From: Rhodobacter sp. CZR27
Lineage (GTDB): Bacteria > Pseudomonadota > Alphaproteobacteria > Rhodobacterales > Rhodobacteraceae
Length of the DNA: 64,000 nt
Assembly (NCBI RefSeq): GCF_002407205.1
Contig: NZ_CP023548.1
Coordinates: 3,031,001 to 3,095,000 of the forward strand
Reading direction: 5' to 3'
Positions 3-19,196 of the stretch are shown one piece after another. The translations under genes and the position numbers were made by a program. Numbering within the stretch: the stretch's first letter is position 1; each line of letters begins with the position of its first letter. The notes below the pieces were generated by a model. The model was not told where the DNA came from and ran no database searches. It saw nothing but the letters and a program-made list of their open reading frames with translations.

Positions 3-335
3 TACAACGATCAAGGGGCCTTCGACGCCGCGAACAACCACTTCGTCGCGCCCGTGGACGGCACCTACCTGTTCGGCGCGACGCTGCTCTACAAGGTCAA
101 CGCCAGTACCACCGCCCGCATGCGCGGGAGGCTCGTGCTGAACGGCACCACCGAAATCCGCGGCTCCCTCGGCGAAATCTCCGCCACCCATGTCTCGCTC
201 GCCACCGCGATCTGGCTGCAGACCATGGTGCCGCTGACTGCGGGCGATACCGTCGAGCTGCAAGGGTATTTCCGGGTCGCGGACGGCTACTTCGCCGCCG
301 ATCACACGTCCTTCTGGGGCTGCAAGATTGGCTGA
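3..335 (+). CDS. Phage virion protein with C1q-like C-terminal domain (5' truncated)
   Basis: The reading frame is open from base 3 and enters from outside the window, so only about the last 110 residues are seen. The pattern DGTYLFGATLLYK near the middle and the ending TSFWGCKIG are typical of the C1q/TNF-like beta-jelly-roll domain that closes many phage tail or fibre proteins in alphaproteobacterial prophages. It would form part of the virion surface or tail tip. It is followed at short distance by a small membrane protein and a lysis cassette, the normal order at the end of a late operon. The role is inferred from domain type and context; the rest of the protein is not visible. Confidence 0.6.
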   Translation, partial: YNDQGAFDAANNHFVAPVDGTYLFGATLLYKVNASTTARMRGRLVLNGTTEIRGSLGEISATHVSLATAIWLQTMVPLTAGDTVELQGYFRVADGYFAADHTSFWGCKIG

Positions 336-354
336 GCGGCGGAAGGAGGATCCG

Positions 355-642
355 ATGACACCACCCCGATCCGAGGGCTTCGTGCGCATGCCCGACGCCG
401 AGTTCGAGGCGATCCTGACCCGGGCGGCCGAGGAAGGCGCGAAGCGTGCGCTCGCCGATGTCGGCCTCGACGGCGCCGAGGCCGCGCTCGACATCCGCGA
501 TCTGCGCTCCCTGGTCGACTGCATCCGGCTGGTGCGGCGCACCGCAATGCAGACCGCCGTTCGCATGATCACCACCGGCGTCATGCTGGCGCTGCTCGCG
601 GGCATCGCCATCAAGCTCAAGATCTTCGGCAGCGGCCCGTAG
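355..642 (+). CDS. Small phage membrane protein, DUF6127-like
   Basis: 95-residue product. I chose the ATG at 355 because AGGAGG lies at 344-349; an in-frame upstream codon at 328 has no such site. The N-terminal half is acidic and helical, and the last 25 residues form one membrane segment (MITTGVMLALLAGIAIKL). It resembles the small proteins called DUF6127 that sit next to endolysins in Rhodobacterales prophages and gene transfer agents; that name is from memory. A holin-like or accessory lysis role is possible from its position but no motif shows it. A rho-independent terminator follows directly. Confidence 0.55.
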   Translation: MTPPRSEGFVRMPDAEFEAILTRAAEEGAKRALADVGLDGAEAALDIRDLRSLVDCIRLVRRTAMQTAVRMITTGVMLALLAGIAIKLKIFGSGP

Positions 643-675
643 CCGCGCCCGATCCCCATTCATCAGCCCGCAATG

Positions 676-698
676 ACCCGCCCTCGAGGCGGGTTTTT
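676..698 (+). terminator. Rho-independent terminator
   Basis: A 7-bp stem (ACCCGCC / GGCGGGT) with a 5-nt loop is followed by a T run. It lies between the small membrane protein and the endolysin, so the lysis genes downstream probably have their own promoter or rely on read-through. Confidence 0.75.
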
Positions 699-715
699 CG
701 TTTTCGGAGGACCCC

Positions 716-1390
716 ATGACGACGACCTTCCACCGCCATTGGCGTGATGTACCAGAGAGCGCGTGGCGCTGGCCGAACTTCAGCCCGGCCGAGATCGCCT
801 GCCGGGGCACCGGCAAGCTGCTCGTCAACGAGCCCGCGCTCGACAAGCTGCAGGCGCTGCGCGATCGGCTGGGCAAGCCGCTGATCGTGCGTTCCGGCTA
901 TCGCAGCCCCGAGCATAACCGCGCGGTCGGTGGCGCCACGAGGTCGAAGCATCTGGACGGCGCCGCCTTCGATATCGCCATGGCCAACCAGGACCCGGTG
1001 GCGTTCGAGGCTGCGGCGCGCGAGGTCGGGTTCCTCGGCTTCGGGTTCTACCCGCGCTCGGGCTTCATCCATGTCGACCTTGGCCCCGCGCGCCAGTGGG
1101 GCGAGCGGTTCCCGGTCCGGGCTACCGCGTTTGCAGCGGAGACGCCCCCCGCACGCGAAGTGCTGGCCGACAGCCGCACCATGAAGGGTGGTGGCGCGGC
1201 AGGCTTGGCGACGCTGGGCGCTGCCGGGGTCGAGGTCGCGCAAAGCGTCTTGGCCGAGACCCAGACCGCCATCCTGCCGCTCGTGCCGTATCTCGACACA
1301 TTGCGCTGGGTGTTCATCGCCGTGGCGCTCGGGGGCATCGCAGTCACGATCTACGCCCGTCTCGACGATTGGAAACGGGGGCAGCGATGA
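716..1390 (+). CDS. Endolysin-like M15 peptidase with C-terminal membrane anchor
   Basis: 224 residues. Residues 20-125 match the M15A/YcbK-like D-Ala-D-Ala peptidase fold: the SGYRS motif at 60-64 and the zinc ligands H79 and D86 in SKHLDGAAFD plus H119 in FIHVDLG. It should cleave peptide cross-links in peptidoglycan. Unusually for an endolysin, residues about 188-214 form a hydrophobic membrane segment, so the enzyme is probably tethered to the inner membrane, with either a holin-like or a SAR-type role. TTTTCGGAGGACCCC just upstream carries a good ribosome site. Its stop overlaps the next start (ATGA), which couples it to the spanin gene. Confidence 0.8.
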   Translation: MTTTFHRHWRDVPESAWRWPNFSPAEIACRGTGKLLVNEPALDKLQALRDRLGKPLIVRSGYRSPEHNRAVGGATRSKHLDGAAFDIAMANQDPVAFEAAAREVGFLGFGFYPRSGFIHVDLGPARQWGERFPVRATAFAAETPPAREVLADSRTMKGGGAAGLATLGAAGVEVAQSVLAETQTAILPLVPYLDTLRWVFIAVALGGIAVTIYARLDDWKRGQR

Positions 1391-1644
1391 TCGCCACCTT
1401 GCTCGGCGGCATCGCTGCGAGCCCATGGATGCGGGCCCCGCTGCGCTACGGCGCCATCGTCATAACCGTGCTCCTGTTTCTGCTTTCGCTTCGGCGGTCC
1501 GGCGAGCGAGCGGGACGCCTCGCCGAACGCCTTGAGACCACGGAGAAGGCAAATGATGTCCATCGCCGGATGCTGGAGGCGGCGGCTCGCCGCCCTCGCG
1601 ATCGTAACGAGCTTGCTCAGCGGCTGCGCGACGGTTCGTTCTGA
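1387..1644 (+). CDS. Inner-membrane spanin-like protein (Rz analogue)
   Basis: 85 residues, with ATG overlapping the endolysin stop. A short N-terminus is followed by one membrane helix (about residues 20-36) and then a charged helical periplasmic tail, the classic i-spanin layout. Its 3' third overlaps the next gene by 92 nt in another frame, the Rz/Rz1 arrangement. By analogy it would join the outer-membrane lipoprotein partner to fuse inner and outer membranes at lysis. The assignment rests on architecture and context, not on sequence motifs. Confidence 0.6.
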   Translation: MIATLLGGIAASPWMRAPLRYGAIVITVLLFLLSLRRSGERAGRLAERLETTEKANDVHRRMLEAAARRPRDRNELAQRLRDGSF

Positions 1645-1804
1645 GAACGGGAGGCTGGCGACATGCCCGCCCGTGGTCGAGTATGGCAGGGAGTTCCAGG
1701 CGCGGGCGGCCGAGGAGTTGGCCCTGCTGCCACAGGGATCTGCGCTCGCTGAGATGTTTCGCGACTACGCTGTCATGCGCAACCAGGCGCGGGCCTGCGG
1801 ATAG
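1553..1804 (+). CDS. Outer-membrane spanin-like lipoprotein (Rz1 analogue)
   Basis: 83 residues from the ATG at 1553, with GGAGAAGG at 1542-1549. It has a lipoprotein signal: a basic N-terminus (CWRRR), a hydrophobic stretch and the lipobox LLSGC with the acylated cysteine at residue 25. The gene begins inside the i-spanin gene in another frame and runs 160 nt past it. The mature part is about 58 residues. This is the last phage gene on this side; the next gene (vsr) is on the opposite strand. Confidence 0.65.
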   Translation: MMSIAGCWRRRLAALAIVTSLLSGCATVRSENGRLATCPPVVEYGREFQARAAEELALLPQGSALAEMFRDYAVMRNQARACG

Positions 1805-1880
1805 CGCAGCTCGGTCAGCAACGTCGCTCGATCACCACGGTGCTGGTTTCATGGCCCAGAAAGGAAAACGGCCCTTCCGC

Positions 1881-2345
1881 TCAGGATCGACGTGCGTTGT
1901 CGTCGCCAATCTCGATCTGAAGTTCTTCTGTTCGCAGCCAGATCGACAGGCTTTCCGTAGAGGCTTCCACCTGTTCCGGCTTCCGCAGGGCGCACTCCCA
2001 TACCGTCGCCACGCGCCACCCGTCTTCGAGGAGTCTTGTGCGAACGGCGCTGTCTCGAGCGGTGTTCGCATCGAACTTCGCCCGCCAGAACTCCGGCCGG
2101 GTTGCCGGTACGGTCGCGTAGCGGCACCCCTCGTGTCGGTGCCAGAAGCAGCCGTGCACGAAGACCACGGCGCGGTGCTTCGGAAGGACAAGGTCCGGTC
2201 GACCGTGAACCTTTCCGGAATGAAGCCGGAAGCGGAACCCGCGCGCGTGCAATGCGCGCCTGAGAGCCAGCTCGGGCCTGGTGTTCTTTCCCCTGATTCC
2301 CGACATCATCCGGGAACGGGTCTGCTGGTCCACGATGTCGGTCAT
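1881..2345 (-). CDS. vsr: Vsr-family DNA mismatch (very short patch) endonuclease
   Basis: 154 residues, the usual Vsr length. It shows the family pattern: SRMMSGIRGKNTRPELALRRALHARGF at the N-terminus, the core aspartate in GRPDLVLP, and the zinc-site and active-site region VFVHGCFWHRHEGC. Vsr nicks 5' of the T in T:G mismatches that arise from deamination of 5-methylcytosine. It is divergent from a C5 methyltransferase with only 67 nt between their starts, as expected for a repair partner of that methylase. A bidirectional control region with TATAC-containing AT-rich sequence lies between them (2370-2400). Confidence 0.9.
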   Translation of the reverse strand: MTDIVDQQTRSRMMSGIRGKNTRPELALRRALHARGFRFRLHSGKVHGRPDLVLPKHRAVVFVHGCFWHRHEGCRYATVPATRPEFWRAKFDANTARDSAVRTRLLEDGWRVATVWECALRKPEQVEASTESLSIWLRTEELQIEIGDDNARRS

Positions 2346-2412
2346 ATCCGTCCTGGTCTTCGTCCCTGAACCTAGTATACACCGGCTAAATGAAATTCGT
2401 CAGGAGCCTGAT

Positions 2413-3990
2413 TTGCCTTCCACTTTCGGCATTGTCGATCTGTTCGCCGGCCCGGGCGGACTTGGCGAGGGGTTCGCTTCCCTCGTCGAGGACGGCCATG
2501 CGCCGTTCCGGATCGGCATTTCGGTCGAGAAGGAGGCGTCGGCCCATCGGACCCTGACGCTGCGTGCCTTTCTGCGCGAGTACCGTGCACGTTATGGCGT
2601 TTTCCCGAAAGAGTTCATCGATTTCCATGCCGGGCTGGCATCCGAACCGGACTGGTCAGCCGTCGATGCCGAAGCGTGGCAGCATTCCATCGACGAAGCC
2701 CGCGCGCTTGAGCTCGGCACCGGGGCTGCGGCGACCGCCATTGATGGCGCCATCGCGACGCTGAAAGCAAAGTACGACGACACGATCCTGATCGGCGGCC
2801 CGCCCTGTCAGGCCTATTCCCTGGTGGGGCGTGTCCGTTCCAGAGGCAAGGTCGGCTACGTCCCGGAGGAGGATGCGCGGCACTACCTCTTTCGCGAGTA
2901 CATCCGGGTCCTCGACAAGCTTCGCCCGGCCGCCTTCGCTATGGAAAACGTCAAGGGCATGCTTTCGTCGACCGTCGAGAGCCGGCTTGTCTTCGAGATG
3001 CTGATGGAGGATCTGTCCTCGCTCGGCACGGGTCACGCTCATCACTACGAACTTCGTGCCGTCCGGGTCGAGGATGGCAAGGCCAGCCTGCAGGAAGCGT
3101 CACAGCCCTCGGACTTCATCGTGCGCTCCGAGGCGTTCGGAGTCCCCCAGCGTCGCCACAGGGTGATCATCGTCGGCATCCGTTCGGACCTCGCAGGACG
3201 GGCTAGCGATGCCCAGATCGCTGTGTCGGGTAGAGTGCGGACCGTCCGCGATGTCATCGAAACGATGCCAACCTTGCGGAGCGGCATCAGCCGCGGGCTC
3301 GACGACGCGGCCGCTTGGCGGGAAGAAGTCCTCGGCGCCGCGAGCATGCTGGCCGGCATTTCCAAGGGGAAGGACGACCAGGCGCTCCGTGAGGCATTCC
3401 TGAGCGTTTCGGAGCGAGTGAAGGAAAACCCGCCTATCGTTCGGGCTGCGTCACGGTTGCCAGACGGCTACGGCACTTCAAACGATGAGTTGCTGCAGTG
3501 GATCGAGCGACCGGAACTTCGCGCGATCGCTCAGCACGAGACGCGCGGGCACATGGCGTCGGACCTAGGCCGCTACCTGTGTGCTGCCGTGTTCGGGACC
3601 GTCCACGGCTACAGCCCGAAGGCCGCCGATTTCCCTCTGGTGCTCAGCCCCGATCACCGGAACTGGCACAGCGGTGTGTTCAATGACCGCTTCCGGGTTC
3701 AGCTGGCGGACGAGGCATCGACCACGGTTACGAGCCACATCTCGAAGGATGGCCACTACTTCATTCACCCCGATCCCATCCAGTGCCGGAGCCTGACGGT
3801 TCGCGAAGCTGCTCGTCTGCAGACCTTTCCCGACGATTACCTGTTCCTCGGCAACCGCACGCAGCAGTATGTCCAGGTCGGAAACGCTGTGCCGCCGCTC
3901 CTGGCACGTCAGATCGCAGCGGTTGTGCACGCCACGCTTCAAAAAACCAGCACCCAGCGAACGCAGACGTTCGTTTCAGCGAACGATTGA
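2413..3990 (+). CDS. DNA (cytosine-5-)-methyltransferase
   Basis: 525 residues from TTG 2413, which has AGGAG at 2402-2406 and sits just before the conserved start of motif I (IVDLFAGPGG). An in-frame ATG further upstream would overlap vsr. The catalytic PCQ has Cys132, the ENV motif has Glu178, QRRHRV is at about 246-251, and the C-terminal motif X reads VQVGNAVPPLLARQIA. About 90 residues are inserted between motifs I and IV, longer than in Dcm, so the specificity cannot be read off. It would methylate cytosine in a specific site and protect host DNA from the nuclease genes downstream. The stop codon lies inside the palindrome upstream of the HTH-Z1 gene. Confidence 0.92.
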   Translation: MPSTFGIVDLFAGPGGLGEGFASLVEDGHAPFRIGISVEKEASAHRTLTLRAFLREYRARYGVFPKEFIDFHAGLASEPDWSAVDAEAWQHSIDEARALELGTGAAATAIDGAIATLKAKYDDTILIGGPPCQAYSLVGRVRSRGKVGYVPEEDARHYLFREYIRVLDKLRPAAFAMENVKGMLSSTVESRLVFEMLMEDLSSLGTGHAHHYELRAVRVEDGKASLQEASQPSDFIVRSEAFGVPQRRHRVIIVGIRSDLAGRASDAQIAVSGRVRTVRDVIETMPTLRSGISRGLDDAAAWREEVLGAASMLAGISKGKDDQALREAFLSVSERVKENPPIVRAASRLPDGYGTSNDELLQWIERPELRAIAQHETRGHMASDLGRYLCAAVFGTVHGYSPKAADFPLVLSPDHRNWHSGVFNDRFRVQLADEASTTVTSHISKDGHYFIHPDPIQCRSLTVREAARLQTFPDDYLFLGNRTQQYVQVGNAVPPLLARQIAAVVHATLQKTSTQRTQTFVSAND

Positions 3991-4021
3991 CAATCGTTCG
4001 CTCAGTTGAGATATATCGTTC
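3979..4021 (+). promoter_or_regulatory. Promoter inside a palindromic operator, upstream of the HTH-Z1 gene
   Basis: A perfect inverted repeat occupies 3979-4001, with arms GCGAACGATT and AATCGTTCGC and a 3-nt loop. It contains a consensus -35 box, TTGACA, at 3987-3992. GATATA at 4010-4015 gives a -10 box at 17 bp spacing. The half-site core CGTTCG recurs at about 3968-3973 and 4016-4021, so half-sites flank both promoter elements. This is the layout of a repressor or controller site. The best candidate ligand is the XRE domain encoded from 4179. Confidence 0.65.
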
Positions 4022-4178
4022 GCGCCAGCATACGGCGCTGTGTGTAACTCATCTGGATAGCGCGTAGGGGCGAGGCAAATCCCGAGCAGAAGCGTCGTTG
4101 GGCCCAGTCCACGGCGGGTCTGTGGAGATGTCTCTTCGACTGCGACCGCATTCCCTTCCAGATCATCGCGGAGAACCC

Positions 4179-7013
4179 ATGTCGCTCTCATCCCTTCTTA
4201 AGGACCTGCGCGTCCAATCGGGCCAATCTCTCCAGCAGGTCGCCGAAAAGGTCGGTTCGTCCAAGGCCTACCTGTCCGAGCTCGAACGCGGCGTGGCGAA
4301 GAACCCGGGCATCGACGTGCTGAAGGCGCTCGCCCACAACTACGGCGTTTCCGTTGCGACGCTGATTGGCGAAGCTGACGCGGCGCCGTTGCCACCGCCC
4401 GTGGCCGGTCAGGTCGAGGCATGGGTCGGCAACATCCGGAAGGAGCAGGCTGCCGGGCTGGATCTCGAAACCGCGGCAAACGAGGCCCGCGCGTCCTTCG
4501 AGCGACTTCTTGGCCCGCTCGACCCGCAGCACGAGGCGAACTGGAAGGCGGCTGTCAGCGAGCTTGAAGCCGCTTTCGAGCGGAAGATCGAGTATCTTGG
4601 CAACTATTCGCTCCGCAAGCCGCGACGGCCGCACTGGTATGACGGTCCGCGCGCGGGCGATCTGCACTGGCCGAAGCTCGAGGCCTTCCTGCTGTCTCGC
4701 AAGGGCTGGTCGAAGGAGACCGTTGCGAGCATCGACGCAACATCGACCGAGGTAGTCTCGCTTCTCGAAAATCCTGCCCAGAGCGAGTTCCGGGGTCGAG
4801 GACTGGTGGTCGGCTATGTTCAGAGTGGGAAGACTGCCAACATGGAGGCGGTCATCGCCAAGGCGGTCGATGCCGGGTACCGCTTCGTGATCATCCTGAC
4901 TGGCATGACAAATTCGCTGCGAACGCAGACTCAGGATCGCATCGAATCCGATCTGGTCGAGCGCAACAAGTACGGGTGGCACAGCCACACCACAAGCGAC
5001 TCCGACTTCCGGAAGCCGGCGAGTAAGTGGTTTTCGATTATGGACCCGGTGCAGATCGCTGCCGTGAAGAAGAATGTGGCGCCACTTGAAGCGCTTCTCG
5101 GCACGATCGAGAAGACGCCGCCAACGCACCGCGCGCGCATGCCTGTGCTTATTGTAGATGACGAATGCGATCAGGCCGGCGTCAATTCGACCGGCAGTCA
5201 GTACAACATGACGGCGATCAACGCGCTCATCCGCAAGATTCTCGCGGCACTGCCGAAGGTCCAATACGTCGGATACACGGCGACGCCCTTTGCAAACGTG
5301 CTGATCAACCCGGAGAAGCCGACCGGCGGCCTGGACGACCTATATCCCGAGGACTTCATCACGAGCCTGCCAAAGCCCGAAGGCTATTTCGGTCCGGAGA
5401 GCCTGTTCGGGCGCGACCCGATCGATGCCGATGACGAGAAACCGGAGGAGTCCGGACTCGACATGATCCGTGGGGTCGATGACGCCGAGGTAGCCCTCGT
5501 CCGTCCACCGTCAGCAAAGGACCGGTTCACCTTTGAGCCCGGCATCCCGAAATCGCTCGACAAGGCGCTTTCCTACTTCGTGCTTGCAACCGCCGCCCGC
5601 TATGTACGTGGGCAGTCGCGCCAGCACAGTTCGATGCTGGTGCACACGACGGTCTACACGCACCCGCATCACGCGCTTGCCGACAAGATCGCGGCCTGGC
5701 AGAAAGGGCTCGCCAAGAAGATCTCGAAGGGCGACGAGAAGACGTTCGATCGACTTGAGAAGCTCTGGCTCGAAGAGGTGGCCAAGGTCGATGCGGGTCG
5801 CTTCGGCCTTGCGCCGACATCGTTCAGCGCGCTGAAGCCTGAGCTCGAGAAGGTCCTCGATGACATCGCGATCGTGGTCGAGAACAGCGACAGCGAGACG
5901 CGGCTCGACTACGCGTCGGGGCCGAAGAAGTACATCGTGGTCGGCGGCTCGGTGCTCGCGCGTGGTCTCACAATTGAGGGGCTGGTCGTCAGCTACTTCG
6001 TGCGCTCATCGAACCAGTACGACACCCTCCTTCAGATGGGCCGATGGTTCGGATATCGGCCCGGTTACGAGGACCTCCCGCGGATCTGGATGACCGACGA
6101 CCTGCGGACATCGTTCCGCGATCTGGCGACGGTCGAGGCCGAGATCCGGGCCGACATTCAGCAGTACCGCAAACGCGAGGTGACACCGGCGGATTTCTCG
6201 ATCCGGGTGCGACGCATTCCTGGATTGGCCATCACCGCTGCCAAGAAGATGTATGCGGCCAAGGCATGCGACGTGAGCTTCTCGGGAGAGCACATCCAGA
6301 CCATACGCTTCCCGCACCGTGACGAGGACTTTCTTCGGCACAACTGGGAGGCTGCGGCCGAGCTGGTCGATGCGGCAGCGAGCCAAGGTATCAAGCCTGC
6401 GCGGCGCGGCCGTCTGATCGAAGGCGTATCCTTCGATCTCGCCATGAAGTTTCTGGAGACTTACAGAAGTGACCAGCGCGATCTGATCTCGGGAAAGCTG
6501 TTGGAATACATCCGGCTCGAGGCGAGTCGGGCCGATCAGCCGTACGAAACCTGGAACATCGCGATCGTCGAAACAGGCGGAACCCGCCGCTCCGTTGAGC
6601 CGCTTGGTGCCTTCGGCAATGTCGGCCTCGTCAATCGGGCACGCCTCAAGGGACTGACACGCGACGGTCTCGCCGACATCAAGGCTCTGATGTCGCGGGA
6701 CGACGTGCTTATGGACGTCACCGGCTCGCCCGATGACAGGTCTTGGGACAGCGTTAAGGAATTCCGTCAGGCGCTGGTCGGTGACCGGATTCCACTGCTG
6801 CTCCTTTACGCAATCGATGAGGCGTCGGTACCGAGGTCTGAGAAGCTGCGCGAACCGCTCGGCGCGGTGCGCGACATGCTGGGAATTGGCCTCGTTCTGC
6901 CAGAGCGGGGCGCAAAGACAAGTTATGTCCGCGTCCCGATCAACCAGGACGACGGCGACGAGGAGGACGTTCAGGCAGACATCGACGGCGATGCCGGACA
7001 GGCTGCGAAATGA
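4179..7013 (+). CDS. XRE-HTH / Z1-domain ATPase fusion of a Mza/MORC-type defence cassette
   Basis: 944 residues; start ATG 4179 has GGAGAA at 4170-4175. Residues about 5-65 are a lambda-Cro/XRE helix-turn-helix (SLQQVAEKVGSSKAYLSELERG). The rest is a Z1-type superfamily II ATPase: Walker A-like GYVQSGKTA at 212-220, IVDDE with DDE at 327-329, GYTATP at 365-370, and arginine-finger motif VI-like QMGRWFGYRPG from 619. Z1 proteins occur with MutL/MORC-type ATPases in restriction-like systems and are thought to translocate on or remodel DNA. The added HTH is notable: it could give DNA recognition or repress the promoter 170 bp upstream. The stop overlaps the next gene (ATGA). Confidence 0.88.
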   Translation: MSLSSLLKDLRVQSGQSLQQVAEKVGSSKAYLSELERGVAKNPGIDVLKALAHNYGVSVATLIGEADAAPLPPPVAGQVEAWVGNIRKEQAAGLDLETAANEARASFERLLGPLDPQHEANWKAAVSELEAAFERKIEYLGNYSLRKPRRPHWYDGPRAGDLHWPKLEAFLLSRKGWSKETVASIDATSTEVVSLLENPAQSEFRGRGLVVGYVQSGKTANMEAVIAKAVDAGYRFVIILTGMTNSLRTQTQDRIESDLVERNKYGWHSHTTSDSDFRKPASKWFSIMDPVQIAAVKKNVAPLEALLGTIEKTPPTHRARMPVLIVDDECDQAGVNSTGSQYNMTAINALIRKILAALPKVQYVGYTATPFANVLINPEKPTGGLDDLYPEDFITSLPKPEGYFGPESLFGRDPIDADDEKPEESGLDMIRGVDDAEVALVRPPSAKDRFTFEPGIPKSLDKALSYFVLATAARYVRGQSRQHSSMLVHTTVYTHPHHALADKIAAWQKGLAKKISKGDEKTFDRLEKLWLEEVAKVDAGRFGLAPTSFSALKPELEKVLDDIAIVVENSDSETRLDYASGPKKYIVVGGSVLARGLTIEGLVVSYFVRSSNQYDTLLQMGRWFGYRPGYEDLPRIWMTDDLRTSFRDLATVEAEIRADIQQYRKREVTPADFSIRVRRIPGLAITAAKKMYAAKACDVSFSGEHIQTIRFPHRDEDFLRHNWEAAAELVDAAASQGIKPARRGRLIEGVSFDLAMKFLETYRSDQRDLISGKLLEYIRLEASRADQPYETWNIAIVETGGTRRSVEPLGAFGNVGLVNRARLKGLTRDGLADIKALMSRDDVLMDVTGSPDDRSWDSVKEFRQALVGDRIPLLLLYAIDEASVPRSEKLREPLGAVRDMLGIGLVLPERGAKTSYVRVPINQDDGDEEDVQADIDGDAGQAAK

Positions 7014-8029
7014 CGGACGGAACCCGTGCGGGCATCGGCTGGGAACGCCTGCGGCAGGAGTCAGGTGCGCAGGCGAGTGATCTGGGCGTGCCCTCCCTGG
7101 TGCTTGACGCCTCGGCTGGCGCTGGCCCCGCCCGCCTCGCGATAGGAGCTGAGCGCGAAGCGCGGCTTCTTGTCCCGCTCGCAGCCGGTGAGCGGTTCCC
7201 GATGGTCCACGATACGCACGGTCTTGAACTCAGGGACAGCGTGCTTCTGCTGCAGGGACAGCCGGTCCGGTTCATCGATGTCGCCTGCCGCGGCGAGCGT
7301 CTCGAGGCCGTCTTCGAGAAGCTGGTCGATGAAATCGTTCGGCGCCTGAGGGGGGGCGCCGCGCCGGCGAACGCGCTCGAGGATGCAATCACCGACTTTC
7401 GCAATCTCCTCTCGGGCGCTAACCGCGAGCGTCCTTCGATCGAAACCGCACTCGGGCTGATTGGCGAGCTCATCATCCTGAACCGGCTACTTCTTGTTGA
7501 TCCCGACGCCTGGCAACTCTGGACCGGGCCGGCTGGCGGCCGTCACGACTTCCGTGGCGGTGACCGGGCAATCGAGGTCAAGACTTCGCTTCGTGCCCAG
7601 TCCCGGATCGTGGAGGTATCTGCAATTGACCAGCTGGCAGCGCCCCCCGGCGGACATCTGCTGCTCGCGCACTGCGTGCTCGAGTATGACGGGGCGGGGC
7701 CTCTTTCGGTTGTGGGTGAGGCGACGCATGCGTGCACGATCGCAAGCGATCCTGCCGCCGTGGCCGATCGGCTCGCCCTGCTCGGATACGATCAGGCCCA
7801 GGCCGATGAGTGGTCCTCGTTCAGGTTCTCCCTGTTCTCGCAGGAGCTCTATTCGGTGACCGACGGCTTTCCGCGGCTCACTCCCGCCTCGTTTGCGGAG
7901 GGAGAACTGCCGGTCGGGGTCAGCCACTTCCGCTACCGGGTGAATCTCGATTTTGCGTCGGAGTTTCGAGTCCGGCCCGCCGAGGCCGACAATGCGCTTC
8001 AGGAGATAGTGTCATGTCTAAGCCCCTGA
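7010..8029 (+). CDS. PD-(D/E)XK motif protein, DUF4420 type (Mza/MORC cassette nuclease subunit)
   Basis: 339 residues. A restriction-endonuclease-like core is visible: E153 in LIGEL, D180 in RHDFRGG, and E189-x-K191 in IEVKTS. This is the DUF4420 family, which travels with Z1 and MutL-like ATPases. It is the best candidate for the DNA-cutting subunit. The start overlaps the Z1 gene by 4 nt and the end overlaps the ATPase gene by 16 nt, so translation is coupled. All expected catalytic residues are present. DNA cleavage by this family is inferred from the fold. Confidence 0.82.
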   Translation: MTDGTRAGIGWERLRQESGAQASDLGVPSLVLDASAGAGPARLAIGAEREARLLVPLAAGERFPMVHDTHGLELRDSVLLLQGQPVRFIDVACRGERLEAVFEKLVDEIVRRLRGGAAPANALEDAITDFRNLLSGANRERPSIETALGLIGELIILNRLLLVDPDAWQLWTGPAGGRHDFRGGDRAIEVKTSLRAQSRIVEVSAIDQLAAPPGGHLLLAHCVLEYDGAGPLSVVGEATHACTIASDPAAVADRLALLGYDQAQADEWSSFRFSLFSQELYSVTDGFPRLTPASFAEGELPVGVSHFRYRVNLDFASEFRVRPAEADNALQEIVSCLSP

Positions 8030-9873
8030 GTCTCCATGCGGAATGCTTCGCGGCTGCAGGTGGCATGGCTGCCGACGGCATGAAGAAGCTTCTGGGCACA
8101 CCTGCGCTGTCCCTGCTGGAGACGGTGGTGAGGGAGACGGTCCAGAACAGCTGGGATGCACGGCTCGTCGAGTCCGGCGTCGGCTACAGGATTGGCTTGC
8201 GAGAGCTGCGGCCCGAGGAGGCTGCCATTCTCCGCGATGAGATTCTCGCCAAGCTCCCTTCGTCCAAGGAGTCCGCAGACCCACTGCTTGCCTACCTTTC
8301 CTCGAAGCATCCGGTCGTCATGGAGATTTCCGACTGGAGGACCCGTGGCCTCGGCGGTCCATCTCGGGCGAACGTGCTGCCGAAGCCAGGAGAGCACAAC
8401 GACTTCGTGAATTTCGTGCGCAACATGGGTGCCCGTCGTGACATGGCGGGCGGTGGCGGCACTTATGGTTACGGGAAGAGTTCGCTCTATCAGCTCAGTC
8501 GATGTGCCACGGTCCTCGTTGACTCGGTCTCGCTGACTCCTTCCGCGCGGATCGTTCACCGCTTCATTGGATGCCACTTGGGCGATGCCCACGACAGCAA
8601 GCGCCATGGCCGGCTGACCGGCCGCCACTGGTGGGGCGTGGCCGATGCCGACGACGCGAACGTGGTCGATCCGGTTACTGGTCGCAACGCCGTTCGGCTG
8701 CGGAAGGCGCTCGGGCTTCCTGATCGGGGAGCCGACGCCACGGGAACAACGCTGGTCGTGCTCGCCCCCGATCTCGAGGACCGCCCGCTCGAGGCGGTTG
8801 CGACCGAAATCCAGGAGGCGCTTCTCTGGTACCTCTGGCCAAAGATGCTCCTCGGCGCCGATGGCCAAAGGGCCATGGCCATCGAGGTCGAACTCAACGG
8901 AGAGCTGTTGCCGCTTCCGGCACCCGAAGATTTCCCGCCACTCGACCTGTTCGTTGAGGCCTATCGCGCTGTGAAGGCTGGAGGGCCAAACCTGAACAGG
9001 ATCGCTTCCGAGCGGCCCATCCAGCACCTTGGCCTCTGCTCCATCAGACGCGGCTTCAGGAGGCCTCGACAGTTTCTAGGCGACCCCGCTGAAAGCATCA
9101 TCCCGGCCACCAGTGCGCACATAGCGCTCATGCGTCCGGTTGAACTGGTCGTGAAGTACATAGAGGGCACCCACCTGCCAGGGGACACCGTCGAATGGGC
9201 CGGGGTCTTCATCTGTGACGACGATCCCGTAGTTGAGCAAGCTTTCGCCGACGCTGAGCCACCTGCCCACGACGACTGGATCCCGGACAAGATGCCGAAG
9301 AGCTGGGCAAAGACCTTCGTGCGGGTTGCGCTGGCAAGGCTGAAGTACCTCGCGGCATCATACGCATATCCGGCTTCGTCCTCCACGTCCGGAGCATCCG
9401 AGCAGCCACCGCTTGCCAAGGCGGCCGACCTTCTCGGCAGCTGCATGCCCGCAATCGGAGGTACGGGCGGCGGTGGCGGCGGGTCGCGCGGCCGCGGAAA
9501 TGGCCGAGGCGGCGGTGGTCGCGGCGGAGGCCGCAGCTGGCGGGTCAGCGAGCCACGTTTCGTAGCGTTGCAGGAAGGCGCTACCGGGGCCGAAGCGCTC
9601 TTCGAGATCGACGTGGACAACAATACGGAGCGGGCAATCCGCCTCACCGCCATACCTGCTCCTGTGATCGATGGTGTCTTGGCAGGTCCGGACGAGGGTG
9701 ACGTCGTCGTCACGTTCGTCTGCTGGGAAGATCAGGACGGCAATCAGCTGACCACATCGCCTGAGCTGCTCGCAACGCCGGACGAGAGTGGCAGCTATCG
9801 TGCGCGGATCATCGTGCCTGATGTTGCAGCGGCCGGAGTGCGAGTGGCGGCAGCTGAGCAGGCACCATCATGA
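8014..9873 (+). CDS. MutL/MORC-type GHKL ATPase of the defence cassette
   Basis: 619 residues; ATG 8014 with AGGAGA at 8001-8006, so a longer upstream reading is rejected. GHKL motifs: motif I ETVQNSWDA with E41, N45 and D48; motif II around D107 in EISDWRTRGLGG; and the ATP-lid glycine motif GGGGTYGYGKSS at 136-147. The C-terminal half has a glycine-rich linker (about 481-508, GGGG and RGRGNGRGGGG blocks) before a beta-rich tail of about 110 residues. Such ATPases dimerise on ATP binding and may clamp DNA for the Z1 and nuclease partners. They were described as prokaryotic MORC/MutL relatives in R-M-like operons. The stop overlaps the next start. Confidence 0.82.
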   Translation: MSKPLSLHAECFAAAGGMAADGMKKLLGTPALSLLETVVRETVQNSWDARLVESGVGYRIGLRELRPEEAAILRDEILAKLPSSKESADPLLAYLSSKHPVVMEISDWRTRGLGGPSRANVLPKPGEHNDFVNFVRNMGARRDMAGGGGTYGYGKSSLYQLSRCATVLVDSVSLTPSARIVHRFIGCHLGDAHDSKRHGRLTGRHWWGVADADDANVVDPVTGRNAVRLRKALGLPDRGADATGTTLVVLAPDLEDRPLEAVATEIQEALLWYLWPKMLLGADGQRAMAIEVELNGELLPLPAPEDFPPLDLFVEAYRAVKAGGPNLNRIASERPIQHLGLCSIRRGFRRPRQFLGDPAESIIPATSAHIALMRPVELVVKYIEGTHLPGDTVEWAGVFICDDDPVVEQAFADAEPPAHDDWIPDKMPKSWAKTFVRVALARLKYLAASYAYPASSSTSGASEQPPLAKAADLLGSCMPAIGGTGGGGGGSRGRGNGRGGGGRGGGRSWRVSEPRFVALQEGATGAEALFEIDVDNNTERAIRLTAIPAPVIDGVLAGPDEGDVVVTFVCWEDQDGNQLTTSPELLATPDESGSYRARIIVPDVAAAGVRVAAAEQAPS

Positions 9874-10775
9874 CGGCCATTGCCTATCCCTTCCTTCGTC
9901 CCGGCCCCGACCGGATCAGTGCCGGGCCCTGGCTCGTCACGCGTGACGGCGAACCCTGCGTCTTCGCGGACGGCCACCTCGATCACTTTGACTACTCGAC
10001 CAACCTCGAGGCAGTTCGTCATTTCAAAGTCGATGTGGAAGGGGTAGCCGCTGACACCGGGCTAAAGGCCGACGAGATCAGGCTCCTCTGCGTCGTCACT
10101 TTCGGCACCGGTGGCCGCCGCCTCCAGCGCGCGAGAAGAATTGTTACCCGGGAAGTGATCCAAGCCGGCCGCGAGGCTGCTGTACTGGCGCTAGCAATCG
10201 ATGGTCGCGAGGTCTCAGAGCTCTTCGTGCTCACGACCGAAATCATCCTTCTTTCGTCGGGTACGGTCCGTCGCCGGGTCTCGCCAGTCACGACAGGTGC
10301 AAGACTTTGGCGAGACGAATTCCGCGCCGCGGTGGAACCGCTCGGTGCGCGCTTCCCGATGGAAGCCGTGAGCTTTGCGACTGTTTTCCCCACCGGCCAT
10401 GGTGATGCACTCTGGTACCTCGACTGGTCACCGCAGACCCTCCACCATGACTTCGCGACGTCGGTCCGACTGCTGATCAACCTGGACAGGCCGGCCTTTG
10501 TGGAAGCCGTGCAGCAAGCGGACGAGGTCACACTGAGGATGCTAATGTGCTCGGTAACCACCCAGATGGTCAGGTCGGCCATCGATCTCGATCATTTTCC
10601 GCTGGACCAAGCGGAGGCCAGCCCTTCGTCGGTATCAGCGGTGATCGAGGCATGGGTGGAACAGGCATTCCCCGGACAGTCGGCGGAGGCTGTGCGGACG
10701 CTGGCACAGCATGACCCTTCACGCTTCGAGCTCGCGATCGGAAGCCTCTTTGCAGGAGAGTTCGGCAATGAGTGA
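9870..10775 (+). CDS. Unknown protein of the Mza/MORC-like cassette
   Basis: 301 residues; ATG overlaps the ATPase stop (ATGA) and the stop is overlapped by the next start, so it belongs to the same translationally coupled operon. I recognise no domain. The first 130 residues alternate hydrophobic and polar as in a beta-rich domain (IRLLCVVTFGTGGRRL, SELFVLTTEIILLSSG); the second half is more helical. There is no signal peptide, membrane segment, cysteine cluster or nucleotide-binding motif. It may be a scaffold or specificity subunit that stands where a different protein (AIPR) is found in the named Mza systems. That comparison is inference. Confidence 0.6.
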   Translation: MTAIAYPFLRPGPDRISAGPWLVTRDGEPCVFADGHLDHFDYSTNLEAVRHFKVDVEGVAADTGLKADEIRLLCVVTFGTGGRRLQRARRIVTREVIQAGREAAVLALAIDGREVSELFVLTTEIILLSSGTVRRRVSPVTTGARLWRDEFRAAVEPLGARFPMEAVSFATVFPTGHGDALWYLDWSPQTLHHDFATSVRLLINLDRPAFVEAVQQADEVTLRMLMCSVTTQMVRSAIDLDHFPLDQAEASPSSVSAVIEAWVEQAFPGQSAEAVRTLAQHDPSRFELAIGSLFAGEFGNE

Positions 10776-11514
10776 GTTCCTCCTCATGCCCCGCCTCGAC
10801 AACCACGGCGTTCGGCGACTGATTGGCATGCCAGACTTGCTGCGAACAGGCTCCATCAGCGAGCGAATGGAGGCGGCCGGCACTTCGGTCTCATATGCGT
10901 CCAGTGGCGGATCGCGAGCCGACGCGGCCGATCTGACAGAACTCCAAGAGCAAATCGGTGCCCTTGCCAAACGCTTCGGATTTCCGAACGAGGGTCGAGC
11001 CGCCGGCAGGGCCTCGTTCGATGCAGAATGTGCGCAGTGGCTGGTGGAGGCTCCCATCATCAGCGGCGGTGAGGCGTTGCGGGATGATGTCTGGGCATTC
11101 GTTGCATGTTGTATCGCCCCGGAGGTGGTGCTCTGGCGCTTCGAGGACGGCCACGCTGACCGCTTCCATGGTGGTCTGCGCAACACCTTCCAGCGGCTCT
11201 GGCTCCGAGCACGTTCGCTGGATCGGGGCGCAGGAGCGCCGCAACGGTGGCAACTCGTCGAGGCGCTGTCGGAGGATGCGGTGGTTCAGATTGTGGAAAG
11301 GCCATCCATCGGGGGCGACCCCATGCTCGCTCGCGCAGTTGCAGAAGCTTGGCTCGCGACCGCGAACCGGATTGGTGCGCGCCGAATGGAAGATGTGACT
11401 CGCCGAGCGGTGCGAAGAATCAGGATCGACAACGAGATTACGTGCCTAGCCTCGTTGGGTGAGCCAGAGCTTGTCAGCCGACTGCAGGGATTTTTCGACG
11501 AGGCGGCGTTATGA
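10768..11514 (+). CDS. Unknown cassette protein, DUF6339-like
   Basis: 248 residues; ATG 10768 with AGGAG at 10754-10758, overlapping the preceding gene by 8 nt. A central segment (about 105-155: DDVWAFVACCIAPEVVLWRF, then RFHGGLRNTFQRLWLRA) is tryptophan-rich and resembles what I remember of DUF6339 proteins found beside Z1/PD-(D/E)XK cassettes. The C-terminal third is basic and helical (RRAVRRIRIDNE). No catalytic motif is evident. It is the last gene of the operon; the next gene converges on it from the other strand. Confidence 0.6.
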   Translation: MSEFLLMPRLDNHGVRRLIGMPDLLRTGSISERMEAAGTSVSYASSGGSRADAADLTELQEQIGALAKRFGFPNEGRAAGRASFDAECAQWLVEAPIISGGEALRDDVWAFVACCIAPEVVLWRFEDGHADRFHGGLRNTFQRLWLRARSLDRGAGAPQRWQLVEALSEDAVVQIVERPSIGGDPMLARAVAEAWLATANRIGARRMEDVTRRAVRRIRIDNEITCLASLGEPELVSRLQGFFDEAAL

Positions 11515-11567
11515 CCTTCGCGGCAACAAGATTGCTTGCAAGGTCACCTGAGGCCGAAGCGAAGTAG

Positions 11568-12110
11568 TCAGTAGCCCCAGCCAGAGCTGACGGGGGGATC
11601 GCCAAGCGGATCTTCAAGCTCGTCGACTGCCGGGAACAGATCACCTTCGCCCGCAAAGGATTTCGCGGCATCCAGTCCTGTTCGACGATCAATCTCGGCC
11701 AACCGTGAATCTACCCACTGCAGCATTCGGCCCAGATCCGAGTCGACGGATAGGCTGTCTTCTTGCGGCAGGCTGGAGATCCACTCGCGGATTTCTTGGG
11801 CCTCCCGACGCAGCTCAATTATCTGCCGCAAGCGAGAAAGTCGCGTCTCCTCGCGCTTGAGGCGGGCCTGCGCCAGCTGTCGCCGGTGCTGCAGAATCTT
11901 CCACTGTCTCTCGCGCTCCTCACGCTCTTCGCGGCGCACGCGAATGGTCTCGAGAATGAGTTCTATGCCTGCGACTATTTCGGGGACCATCCGTTCCACG
12001 CGTTGCGTCTTGCCGTCACCCCACGTCTTCCGCAGGCCGTCTGCCCACGCATCGATCGAGAACACGAGTTCGCCGGTCCACTCGGTCACATATTCCGGTG
12101 TAGAGCGTCA
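11568..12110 (-). pseudogene. 3' half of a gene split by IS21 (coiled-coil domain)
   Basis: About 180 codons are open, reading back to a stop beside the IS21 left end. The product is charged and coiled-coil (REEREERERQWKILQHRRQ and similar), preceded by a short beta segment (GELVFSIDAWADGLRKTWGDG) that in this family normally follows a linker. It is the C-terminal half of the protein whose N-terminal half lies at 14725-15516 on the same strand, beyond the IS21 element. The two halves add up to about 440 residues, the length expected for the whole family. The function of the family is unknown to me. Confidence 0.75.
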
Positions 12111-12170
12111 ACCTCCTTGGCCGTGACCGACAACCAGGATGGCCGGTTTTGACCGCTGCGGTCGTTGGTG

Positions 12171-13034
12171 TTAGTCGGCGCTGATCTCCCTCTGCTTGTC
12201 GTTGATGTTGTCGGTGGCTTCGACGCCGATGTTGTCGCTGGAGGTTGTCGGCGCAGCGACAGGCTCCGTGGATCGGCGTCGTGCGGCGGCGCGTCGGCGG
12301 AAGCTCTCGCCGTTCATCTCGAGGATGGTCGCGTGGTGAACCAGCCGGTCGATGGCGGCGACGGTCATGGCCTGATCGGGGAAGACGCGGTTCCAGGCGC
12401 TGAAGGGCTGGTTGGCGGCGATGGCGAGGCTTCTGGTCTCGTAGCGCCGGGCGATGAGCTCGAAGAGCACCGAGCTCTCGGCCTGGTCCTTCTGGGCGTA
12501 GGTGATGTCGTCGAGGATAATCAGGTCGAATTTGTCGAGCTTCGCGAGGGCGGCCTCAAGGACGAGGTCGCGGCGCGCGGCCTGCAGCCTCTGCACGATG
12601 TCGGTGGTGGGGGTGTAGAGGACGCGCTTGCCGGCCTCGACGAGGGCATGGCCGATGGCACAGAGAACGTGGCTCTTGCCGGCGCCCGAGTTGCCGATGG
12701 CGATGAGATTGGCGCCGGTCTCAACCCAATCCCCGGCGGCCAACGCCTCGATGCGGGCCCGGGTCACGCCGGACAGCGCCTTGAAGTCAAGCGTTGCCAG
12801 CGTCTTGCCGCCGGGAAGTTCGGACTGCTGCAGATGGCGCTGGATGCGGCGGGCATCGCGATCGGCGAGCTCGACCTCGGCCAGGGCTGCGAGGAAGCGC
12901 GAGGCGGGCCAGCCCTCGGCGTCGGCACGCTCGGCGAGCATCGGCCAGTGGCGCTGGATGCTGGGCAGGCGCAGAGCCGTGAGCATGGCGGGCAACGCAT
13001 GCACATCGACGGGGTGCGGGGCAGCGGCGGTCAT
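12171..13034 (-). CDS. istB: IS21 IstB-like ATPase (transposition helper)
   Basis: 287 residues; ATG overlaps the istA stop (ATGA). It is a AAA+ helper related to DnaC: Walker A GNSGAGKSH at about residues 113-121 and Walker B LIILDD. The N-terminal IstB domain is intact, and a disordered Ser/Thr-rich tail of about 40 residues follows. It forms ATP-dependent oligomers on target DNA and stimulates IstA. Walker A carries GNSGAGKS rather than the common GPPGVGKT, still consistent with activity. Confidence 0.9.
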   Translation of the reverse strand: MTAAAPHPVDVHALPAMLTALRLPSIQRHWPMLAERADAEGWPASRFLAALAEVELADRDARRIQRHLQQSELPGGKTLATLDFKALSGVTRARIEALAAGDWVETGANLIAIGNSGAGKSHVLCAIGHALVEAGKRVLYTPTTDIVQRLQAARRDLVLEAALAKLDKFDLIILDDITYAQKDQAESSVLFELIARRYETRSLAIAANQPFSAWNRVFPDQAMTVAAIDRLVHHATILEMNGESFRRRAAARRRSTEPVAAPTTSSDNIGVEATDNINDKQREISAD

Positions 13035-14539
13035 GCGCGCGCCTCCAGCAGCTCGTCGAAGCGGGCCAGATCGGTGAGGTTGACGGGCGTGTCGTCGGGC
13101 AGCTCGCGCCGACGCGGCTCCAGCTTGCTCCTTAGCGCATGGGCTTCGGGCAATTCGCCATGACCGAGGGTGTGGGCAATCAGCGCGGCCAGTTCAGCCT
13201 CGCAGCCCTCCGCATGGGCAAGCCACAGCAGATCGACCATGCGACGGCAGGCGTCGCGGCGCGGCAAGGCGGCGGACAACGCAACCCAGGCCTCGGCGTA
13301 TTCCGATCGCGGGAACAGGCCGTCGCGGTAAACGGAACCGGCCAGCGCCTGCGGCTTGCGGCGCAGGGCGTGGATGACAGGGCGATAGTTGACGCAGTGG
13401 ACGCGGGCGCCGTCATCGCGGCCGCGACGGCGGGGGTGCGTGACGACAGGGGTCGCTCCGAGAAAGGCCTCGATCCGGTCGTCGTAGACATGGACCCGCA
13501 GGCGCTTGCCGATCAGCTGCGAGGGTGCCGAGTAGAAGACCTGGTGGACCAGAAAGCCCCCGGTCTTCGTGACCCGCGCGACCACTTCGGTGAAGTCTGT
13601 GGTGCGCCGGGCCGGCAGCGGCCTGAGCGCCGCCATCTCGATGCGCACCGCGGACTCGCGCCGGCGGTTGCGTCGGGCGACCAGTTCATCGACGAAGCGG
13701 CGCCAGCTGGCGAGATCGGCGAAGTCGCGGGAGCCACGCAGGATCAGGGCCTGGTCGAGGGCGACCTTCAGGTGGTTGTTGTGGGCCTCGACCGATCCGT
13801 TCTCGTGCGCCTCGCCCGGGTTGTTGCGGCTGGCGAGCATGCCGTAGTGGGCGCAGAACGCCTGATAGCGGCTGGTGACATCGGCCGCCGCTTCGGTGTC
13901 GAGGTTCCGGTAAGCTGCGGACAGGCTGTCGGTTCGGTGCTCGTGCGGGACGCCGCCAAGGGTCCAGAGTGCGTTCTGGAGGTTCTCGGCCAGCGCCGGG
14001 AAGCTCTCGCCGCCCAGCACCACGGCGGCATGTTCCCAGCCGCTGTAGGCCAGGACGAAGTGGTAGAGGCGCTGCTCCAGCGGCTGCCCCGCGATCGTCA
14101 CGCAGAGTTCGTTCGCATCGGTGAAGTCCGACAGGGCCATCCGGCCGGGCTCGGGCGTCTGACGGAAGATCACGTCGCGCTCGGGGCCGTTCAGGGCACG
14201 CCAGTCGCGGACGCGCCGCTCGAGCGTCCGGCGCACGCGGTCGTCCGGGAAAGCCTCCGGGTCGCTCATCTGAAGGTGCCGCAGCAGGGTCACGGCCTGA
14301 ACGGCCGGATCACGCGCGAGGATCGGCAGCAGCACCGGCTCCCACACCGCCTCGAGCGGGTCGGGCACGGTGCGGCCCCGGGGGGCCGGACGTTGCGAGG
14401 GAAGGCGCGGATCGGCATCGATGCGGCGGGCGGTGCGCTCGCTGAAGCCGGCGCGGGCGGCGGCGACACGCTGGCTGTGCTGGAGACGGTCGGTCATGTA
14501 GACTCTCAATTGCTGGTCGGTGACGGGTTTGCCCGGCAC
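13031..14539 (-). CDS. istA: IS21 IstA transposase
   Basis: About 502 residues from GTG 14539, chosen because VPGKPVTDQQLRVYM is the normal IstA start. The order is an N-terminal HTH region, an RNase H-like DDE core (DFTDANELCVTI for the first Asp; E in NNPGEAHENGSVEAHN for the last acidic residue), and a C-terminal beta-barrel region. It cuts and joins the IS ends and is co-translated with istB. No frameshift was seen, so the element may be active. Confidence 0.9.
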   Translation of the reverse strand: MPGKPVTDQQLRVYMTDRLQHSQRVAAARAGFSERTARRIDADPRLPSQRPAPRGRTVPDPLEAVWEPVLLPILARDPAVQAVTLLRHLQMSDPEAFPDDRVRRTLERRVRDWRALNGPERDVIFRQTPEPGRMALSDFTDANELCVTIAGQPLEQRLYHFVLAYSGWEHAAVVLGGESFPALAENLQNALWTLGGVPHEHRTDSLSAAYRNLDTEAAADVTSRYQAFCAHYGMLASRNNPGEAHENGSVEAHNNHLKVALDQALILRGSRDFADLASWRRFVDELVARRNRRRESAVRIEMAALRPLPARRTTDFTEVVARVTKTGGFLVHQVFYSAPSQLIGKRLRVHVYDDRIEAFLGATPVVTHPRRRGRDDGARVHCVNYRPVIHALRRKPQALAGSVYRDGLFPRSEYAEAWVALSAALPRRDACRRMVDLLWLAHAEGCEAELAALIAHTLGHGELPEAHALRSKLEPRRRELPDDTPVNLTDLARFDELLEARA

Positions 14540-14627
14540 GGTCGGATCTCCGTTTGGACGCAGAGATCCCGATCCTACCGGCCCGCAGCGGCCAGCACCC
14601 ACCCTTCTCCCCCGAAACGAGGGCCAG

Positions 14628-14683
14628 CCGCTGGGTTCAGCCTCCGGGACGGGCTACGCCCGTCCTCCGGCTCAACCCAGCGG
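14628..14683. repeat. Long hairpin inside the IS21 right end
   Basis: The arms are CCGCTGGGTT...GACGGGC and its near-complement GCCCGTC...AACCCAGCGG around a TAC loop; about 26 bp per arm with a few mismatches. It lies between the istA start and the right terminal repeat, where it could limit incoming transcription or translation of istA. Confidence 0.7.
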
Positions 14684-14724
14684 CCAACTTGCCTGACGGT
14701 GTCGGACAACTTGGTTGTCGCTCA

Positions 14725-15516
14725 TCAGTCCGGCCAGGGTGGACTGCTGCCGAACGAAATACTGTTCCAATCGTTGCGTCGAAGGGACCGTGCCTGTTTC
14801 TCTTTCCGCTTCTCCTCCCGAGCGACTTCTTCTGGGGTCGGTACGTATTTCAGCCTTCTCGTTCGTTCGAGCAGGGTGAAGCTGATCTTGTCCGCGCCCT
14901 TCTGAACGGACATCTTCTCCCCGTCCGCTGTCAGGCTCAGCCCGACCTCGTCGAGCGTCCGCGCCAACGCGTCGAGGAAGAAGCAAGCCCGTTCGGCGGA
15001 CGCAGCGCCGACGATCACGCCACACTGGCCTGGCGCCGTGGCGCTGAGGACGCCCTCCTTGTCCGGCTTCCTGGTCCGAAGGAACTTCACCGTTGTCGCC
15101 ACCGAGGCGTGTGGGTTTTCCATCAGAGGCATTGGGGATTCTGGCGTCGCCTTGATGGTAGCAGCCCGGACTTCCCGCTCAGCCTTTCGCTTGCGGGCGA
15201 GTTCGGCGACGCTGTCGGGAAGAGCTGAGGTGGCCCCGCGGATGCTTACCCGATCGAGGCTTCGATCCCTCAGTTCGAGGAACGGCGGCACTTTCGGTTG
15301 TTCTCCGGCTGCTACCTTGGCCCAGTACCCCCGCGGCGGTACGGGAATACGATGACGACTGCAGACCTTCGCGAGCCCCCGGTCCGATATCCCGAATTCC
15401 TGTGCAAGCGCTGTCATCGGTTTGCTCCAGACCAAGTCGTAGAGGTCCCGACGGCTAAGTATCTGTGAAGGCGACAATTCTTGAACTCTCCGCAATACAG
15501 CTTCGCGCGGAAGCAA
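14725..15516 (-). pseudogene. 5' half of the gene split by IS21 (HTH-like N-terminus)
   Basis: 263 codons end in a TGA supplied at the IS21 boundary. Residues 20-75 hold the family signature: RRDLYDLVWSKPM, then EFGISDRGLAKVCSRH, then PVPPRGYWAKVAAG. This looks like a homeodomain-type HTH followed by a conserved YW motif and is common in rhizobia and Rhodobacterales. The start is uncertain (TTG at 15516 is the furthest). The coding sequence resumes at about 12110 beyond the IS. A DNA-binding role is plausible but not established. Confidence 0.75.
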
Positions 15517-15774: not shown

Positions 15775-18700
15775 CTACGCCGCTTCTGCAGTCTGCCTGA
15801 TCTGCTTCACGATTGCCACGATCTGCTCCACGTCGGCCTGCGGGAAGATGCCGCCGATGCCCTGGTCGTTCAGGTCGGTGAATGGGCTCTCGTAGAAGAG
15901 CGCGGGTTCGATGATGCCCTGTTCGGCGAGATGGTTGACGGCGAGGTCGATGAACTCGCTCTGGGCGGCCGTCAGCGTCCGGCCGTCGGTAAGCTTGCTG
16001 AACGCCTCCTTGGCCGCCTTCCGGTCAAGGCCGGTGAGGCTGCGCAGGAAGAGGCCGAGGCCGCCGGCTTGGGTGATCTCACCCTCGCCCTCCTCGACCT
16101 GCACGCCTTCGGCCACAAACATCTTCTCCAGCTCGGCAAGGTCGGTTGGTGTCAGCTGCTCGGCGCGACGCAGCTTCAGGAGCGCGATGTGGTCCTTGTG
16201 CTTCTCCAAGAAGCGGCGGACCTTCTTGCGGAACTGCGGCTTGTCGATGCCGGGGCTGATGGCGTCGATGGTGATTTCGGTGCCTGCACCGATCTCGTCG
16301 GTGAAGTCGGTGTAGACGATCTTGCGCTCGCGCGGGTCGATCAGCTTCACAAGGGCGCGCAGCGACCTTCGGACATGCTCCAGCTCTTCGGGCGACACAT
16401 CCTCCCAGTAGGCGTCGGTCTGCAGTTCGGCGATCAGCTCCAGCTGCTTCGCGACCATCGGGATGTTCGCCTTGCCCTCCAGGTCGGCCGCAACCTTGCG
16501 GATGCGCAGCGCGAACTGCGCGAAGGCCGCATCCGACTTCAGCAGGCGCAGCATGGCGCCGAGCGTCAGGAGGTCGAACTGCTTCGCCGGCAGGTCGTCG
16601 TCCTGCAGCGCCGTCGGCAGGCTGGAGATGTGGGCGGCCAGATCCTCCCGATCCTCGGCGCCGAGGCTGTCCCAGGCATCGCGGTGCTGGAACTTCTCCA
16701 CCGTGCGGCGCTGCTGCCGGACGAGGAAGTTCTCCAGCGACATGCCGGCCACCTCCTCGTGCAGCCGGTCCCTAAGCCCAGCGGCAAGCTCGGCGTGCTC
16801 CTCCTTGCCCGCCATCGCGTCGATCAGGTCGAGCCGCGTGGTGAAGAGCCTGGCGCCGAGGGGCAGGCCCATCACCGGCTCCGTCCGCGTCGGGTTCTGG
16901 TTGAAGAACTCGAAGTTCTGACAAAAATCGAAAATGCGGAACGCCTCCTTGTCCTGCCCCGGCCCGAACAGATCGCGGCGCAGGCGGGTGCCGCGGCCGA
17001 TCATCTGCCAGAACTTGGTCTTGGAGCGCACGATCTTGAAGAAGACGAGGTTCACCACCTCCGGCACGTCGATGCCGGTGTCGAGCATGTCAACCGACAC
17101 CGCGATGTGCGGCGCCTTCTCCGGGTCCGAGAAGTCGTCGATCAACGACTGGGCATAGACCACGCTGTAGTCGATGAGCCGGGCGAACTGGCCGGCGTGG
17201 TGCGGGTAGTTCGCGTCGAAGCGCTGCGCGATGAACTGAGCGTGCTTGCTGTTCTTGGCGAAGATGATGGTTTTGCCAAGGCGGTCACCGCCGGCCACCC
17301 TGATGCCGTGGGTCATCAGGTGCTCCAGCACCTTGTCCACGGTGTCCTTGTTAAACAGCCACTTGTTCACGTCGTCCGCTTCGACGCGGTCCGGGATCTC
17401 GCCGTCCTCGCTCCATTCCAGCGCGTCCCACTCTGCCTTCTCGTCATCCGAGAGTTGGTCGTAGGTGATGCCCTCGCGCTGGAACTTCAGCGGCACCGAC
17501 ACGACCGAGGGCGGCACGAGGTAGCCGTCGGCCACCGCATCCTCCAGGTCGTAGGCGTCGGTCGGTACGCCCTTCTCCAGCTCGAAGAGCGAGTAGGTAT
17601 CGCGGTCGATCTCGTCGCGCGGTGTGGCGGTGAGGCCCACCAGCAGGGCGTCGAAGTAGTCGAAGATGGCGCGGTACTTGCGGTAGACCGAGCGGTGCGC
17701 CTCGTCGATCACGATCAGGTCGAAGTGGCCGGGGCCGAAGCGCTTCGTCCCGTCCTTCATCTCGTCGATCAGCCCCATCATCGTCGGGTAGGTCGAGAGG
17801 CAGACGCGGGCGGCCGAGTGGTCGTTCTTCTTCGGGTCGTGGCCCTCCAGCAGGTTCGCGCTCGGCGCGCTCGGCAGGTGCGCCTTGAACGCACCATGCG
17901 CCTGCTTCACCAGCGCCACCCGGTCGGCGAGGAACAGCACCCGCTTGCACCAGTTCGCGCGCATCAGCTGGTCGATCAGCGCGATCACCGTGCGCGTCTT
18001 GCCCGAGCCCGTCGCCATCACCAGGAGCGCCTTGCGCTGCCGGTCCTTTTCGAAGGCCTCGCCGACGCGGCGGATCGCCCGCGTCTGGTAGAAGCGCTCG
18101 ACGATGGTCTCGTCCACCTCCACGCCATCGAGCTTCTTCCGGCTCGTCCGGCGCTGGTGCAGCAGCTCCAGCTCGTCGCGCTTGTAGAAGCCCGAGACCG
18201 GCCGCGGCGGGTACATCCGGTCGTCCCAGAACCAGTGCTCGTAGCCGTTGCTGCAGAAGATCACCGGCCGGCGGCCGAACTGCTTCTCCAGGCAGTCGGC
18301 ATAGAGCTTCGCCTGCTGCTGACCGACCAGCGCGTCCTTCCGCGTCCGCTTCGCCTCGACCACCGCGAGCGGCAGCCCGTCGCTACCCCAGAGCACATAG
18401 TCCACGAAGCCCTTGCCCTGCTGGTTCGGCATGCCCTCGACCGGGAACTCGATGTCCTGCGGCTTGTCGAGCGGCCAGCCAGCTTCCTCCAGCAGCAGGT
18501 CGATGAAGGCATCGCGAGTGGCGGCCTCGTTGTAGTCGTGGTGATCCTCGGCCTTCTGGTTCGTCGCGCGTATGGCCGCGATTTCCGCCCGTAGCGCGGC
18601 GAGTTCGGCCTCCAGCGCAGCACGACCCTCCTCCGAGGCCTGACGGGCCGCTACGGCCGCTCTGGCGCGCTCTGCGGCGGCGTCATGCTCCTCCTTCAGC

Positions 18701-19167: not shown

Positions 19168-19196
19168 GAAGCGACCACAAGAACGATGAGTAAGTG

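Follow-up and report, generated by a model that had tools for sequence, protein, structure and literature searches.

The window analysed here, 64,000 nucleotides of Rhodobacter sp. CZR27 (contig NZ_CP023548.1, positions 3,031,001 to 3,095,000), carries a bacterial DNA-restriction cassette of the kind outlined in 2008, which combines a motor, a nuclease, a MutL-like ATPase, a DNA methylase and a repair nuclease. An earlier note on this DNA had picked out the gene set, which is real, and its features, in window coordinates, are as follows.

1881..2345, minus strand: Vsr, a very-short-patch mismatch endonuclease (Pfam Vsr 100.4 bits; NCBIfam vsr 137.8, cut-off 97.85)
2413..3990, plus strand: C5-cytosine DNA methyltransferase (Pfam DNA_methylase 145 bits)
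3957..3974, no strand: imperfect palindrome GCGAACG-caga-CGTTCGT, read by eye, a possible second operator
3978..4002, no strand: perfect palindrome with 12-bp arms, AGCGAACGATTGACAATCGTTCGCT, with TTGACA inside, the proposed operator/promoter of the effector operon
4179..7013, plus strand: HTH-fused motor gene of the effector operon
7010..8029, plus strand: DUF4420 protein, a PD-(D/E)XK nuclease, containing HDFRGGDRAIEVKTS (Pfam DUF4420 146.2 bits, cut-off 27)
8014..9873, plus strand: GHKL ATPase of the paraMORC2 type, with an ExxxH motif (EPPAH)
9870..10775, plus strand: U1, predicted Ig-like beta-sandwich (residues ~10-157) and a mostly helical C-terminal part
10768..11514, plus strand: U2, predicted all-helical, of a divergent DUF6339 family (AlphaFold2 mean predicted local distance difference test score 95.6, predicted template-modelling score 0.90)

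The methylase start, TTG at 2413, is inferred from a relative, with the reading frame open from GTG at 2281; its best PADLOC model is DrmMII (272 bits). U2 falls near the Pfam family DUF6339, which 40 of 61 aligned members match, and a profile match (E 1.7e-7) links it to an evident DUF6339 protein. A DUF6339-like match also lies at 3332-3805 (H16) of the unannotated 6.2-kb phage record MT837792.1.

Comparison with other genomes suggests that the two unnamed proteins are standard cassette parts: among 80 loci, 79 carry U1 and 77 carry U2. The genes co-occur elsewhere, as the earlier note had expected, and its two unknowns are general members of the system.

The same comparison suggests that the methylase is an exchangeable add-on to the effector core. 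Across 64 cassettes, core distances correlate with methylase distances at Spearman 0.33-0.36, whereas the values within the core are 0.80-0.92. Furthermore, the window's methylase type is common to cores as low as 37% in mean identity, and two cores 75% identical stand beside different target-recognition domains. The same contig also carries an MzaB-C-D-E locus with Vsr and a C5 methylase (L088, G000:C1:1265001-1285000, at 5165-14765), whose methylase is 74% identical to that of the cassette, and 68% identical in the target-recognition domain over 205 residues. All of these observations would suit a core that is itself sequence-blind and takes target recognition for the effector from the methylase, much as PglX supplies it in BREX, as would the finding that no window of the core tracks the target-recognition domain better than permuted labels (the best was reached by 45 of 200 permutations), in a covariation test of 50 cassettes that had little power. 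By contrast, the place and strand of the methylase genes around the core vary among loci, unlike those of a fixed subunit, and a search of L044 with the methylase profile of the window, over 6.4 and 8.4 kb, turned up no C5 methylase. A coarser comparison also found DUF4420 residues ~91-140 less alike where methylase types differ (0.48 vs 0.87 at 101-130), a difference that gained no backing from a partial test (correlations from -0.05 to 0.11). Methylase-borne recognition is plausible but less likely than not. Largely independent evolution of methylase and core would also fit an abortive or toxin-like system with methylase and Vsr as unrelated neighbours; this is quite unlikely, as a methylase is present in 68 of 75 complete loci, and five of the remaining seven have <=3.1 kb of sequence on one side.

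The DNA-binding domain on the motor probably controls the motor's own operon, to judge from the other genomes compared. The earlier note had treated the XRE domain on Z1 as a trait of the system; it is present in the window, but it belongs to one subclade (5 of 71) and not to the system as a whole. Restriction enzymes that recognise sequence through an HTH domain do exist, and fusion to the motor itself would fit such a role here, which we consider unlikely.

Several observations weigh against the restriction-cassette reading and its operator. A subunit for target recognition did not emerge, since no stretch of the core could be seen to vary with the target-recognition domain of the methylase. 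Some loci lack a part: L044 its methylase, as above, and L033, L003 and L005 a DUF4420 gene. The HTH loci come down to roughly three independent lineages. The palindrome pattern, at <=2 mismatches, has nine matches in 1.45 Mb (80 loci), four of them these sites, and so also occurs elsewhere. A promoter scan did not list the promoter proposed over 3978..4002, because its second hexamer, GATATA, is poor. The reading, built on sequence and predicted structure, is more likely than not.

The cassette block at window 1737-11518 recurs in L007 at 94.9%, and nothing else matched in the first 20 kb (E 1e-10). Prophage late genes lie left of Vsr; tail and endolysin genes (window 54-1804 and L087 9261-17525) end just left of it, and a serine-recombinase-like integrase lies at L087 5296-6495. 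A 334-residue protein (HNH_2 in L087) and a 592-residue protein, to the eye apparently the same pair, occupy L087 1901-4680 and L007 788-3567. Here the pair lies past the prophage, ~20 kb to the left of the cassette; in Loktanella it directly adjoins the cassette. The arrangement suggests that the prophage inserted between the two. To the right lie what we take to be an IS21-like IstA/IstB pair (12171-14602; the IstB-like protein is DnaC-like in PHROGs) and a type I restriction system (15775-21835; HsdR, HsdS and HsdM by PADLOC).

From an operon class loosely described in 2008, this analysis makes a defined system of five genes, among them two constant but unstudied subunits of predicted fold, and it supplies a concrete candidate operator. 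One methylase type beside two different effectors on one chromosome is a natural experiment that bears on what reads the target site. If the GHKL–U1–DUF6339 set does work with several nucleases, it would amount to a MutL-like device for coupling in restriction, and would bear on the workings of prokaryotic relatives of eukaryotic MORC proteins.

The earlier note was right that the cassette is related to Mza yet distinct from it, and right about the absence of an AIPR protein (no MzaE/AIPR match among nine proteins scanned). The dedicated methylase and Vsr do not set the cassette apart, because such genes are also common in MzaB/MzaE-type loci: among 18 stretches, nine of ten such loci have a C5 methylase matching the window's profile (one a fragment, one found only in the BLAST list) and seven have Vsr. 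The MzaC homologue is clear (PADLOC 290 bits; 376.5 bits against an NCBIfam equivalog cut-off of 1500), as is DUF4420 by Pfam, with MzaD at 62.7 bits against an NCBIfam cut-off of 420. MzaB gave no match at E<=1 to cassette proteins, and BLASTP against the MzaB of this same genome showed no similarity (E 0.38). The rival view of the cassette as an Mza system that has diverged, U1 and U2 standing in for MzaE or being forms of it that escaped recognition, is mostly refuted and very improbable. The proposed MORC-type restriction operon stands; its novelty as a subtype falls in part, the arrangement largely being that of the paraMORC2/helicase operons, as described in the parts of the source available to us (Iyer et al., 2008; PMC2292703), where U1 and U2 have no description. 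Indeed, the cassette has a GHKL ATPase with a C-terminal ExxxH motif, an SF2 helicase with DThhQXuRhFG, and an RE-fold partner (DUF4420) with a C5 methylase and Vsr nearby; the same text notes that paraMORCs lack the classical MORC S5-domain motif GhXhhpXXRhl. CglI and NgoAVII (BceSIV) differ in being described with three genes (methylase, R and N), without GHKL, DUF4420, U1 or U2, and in their nuclease, a PLD protein that carries a B3 domain, a family not found among the nine proteins scanned. One further known system shares with the cassette a GHKL protein with ExxxH, DUF6339 as third gene and a C5 methylase.
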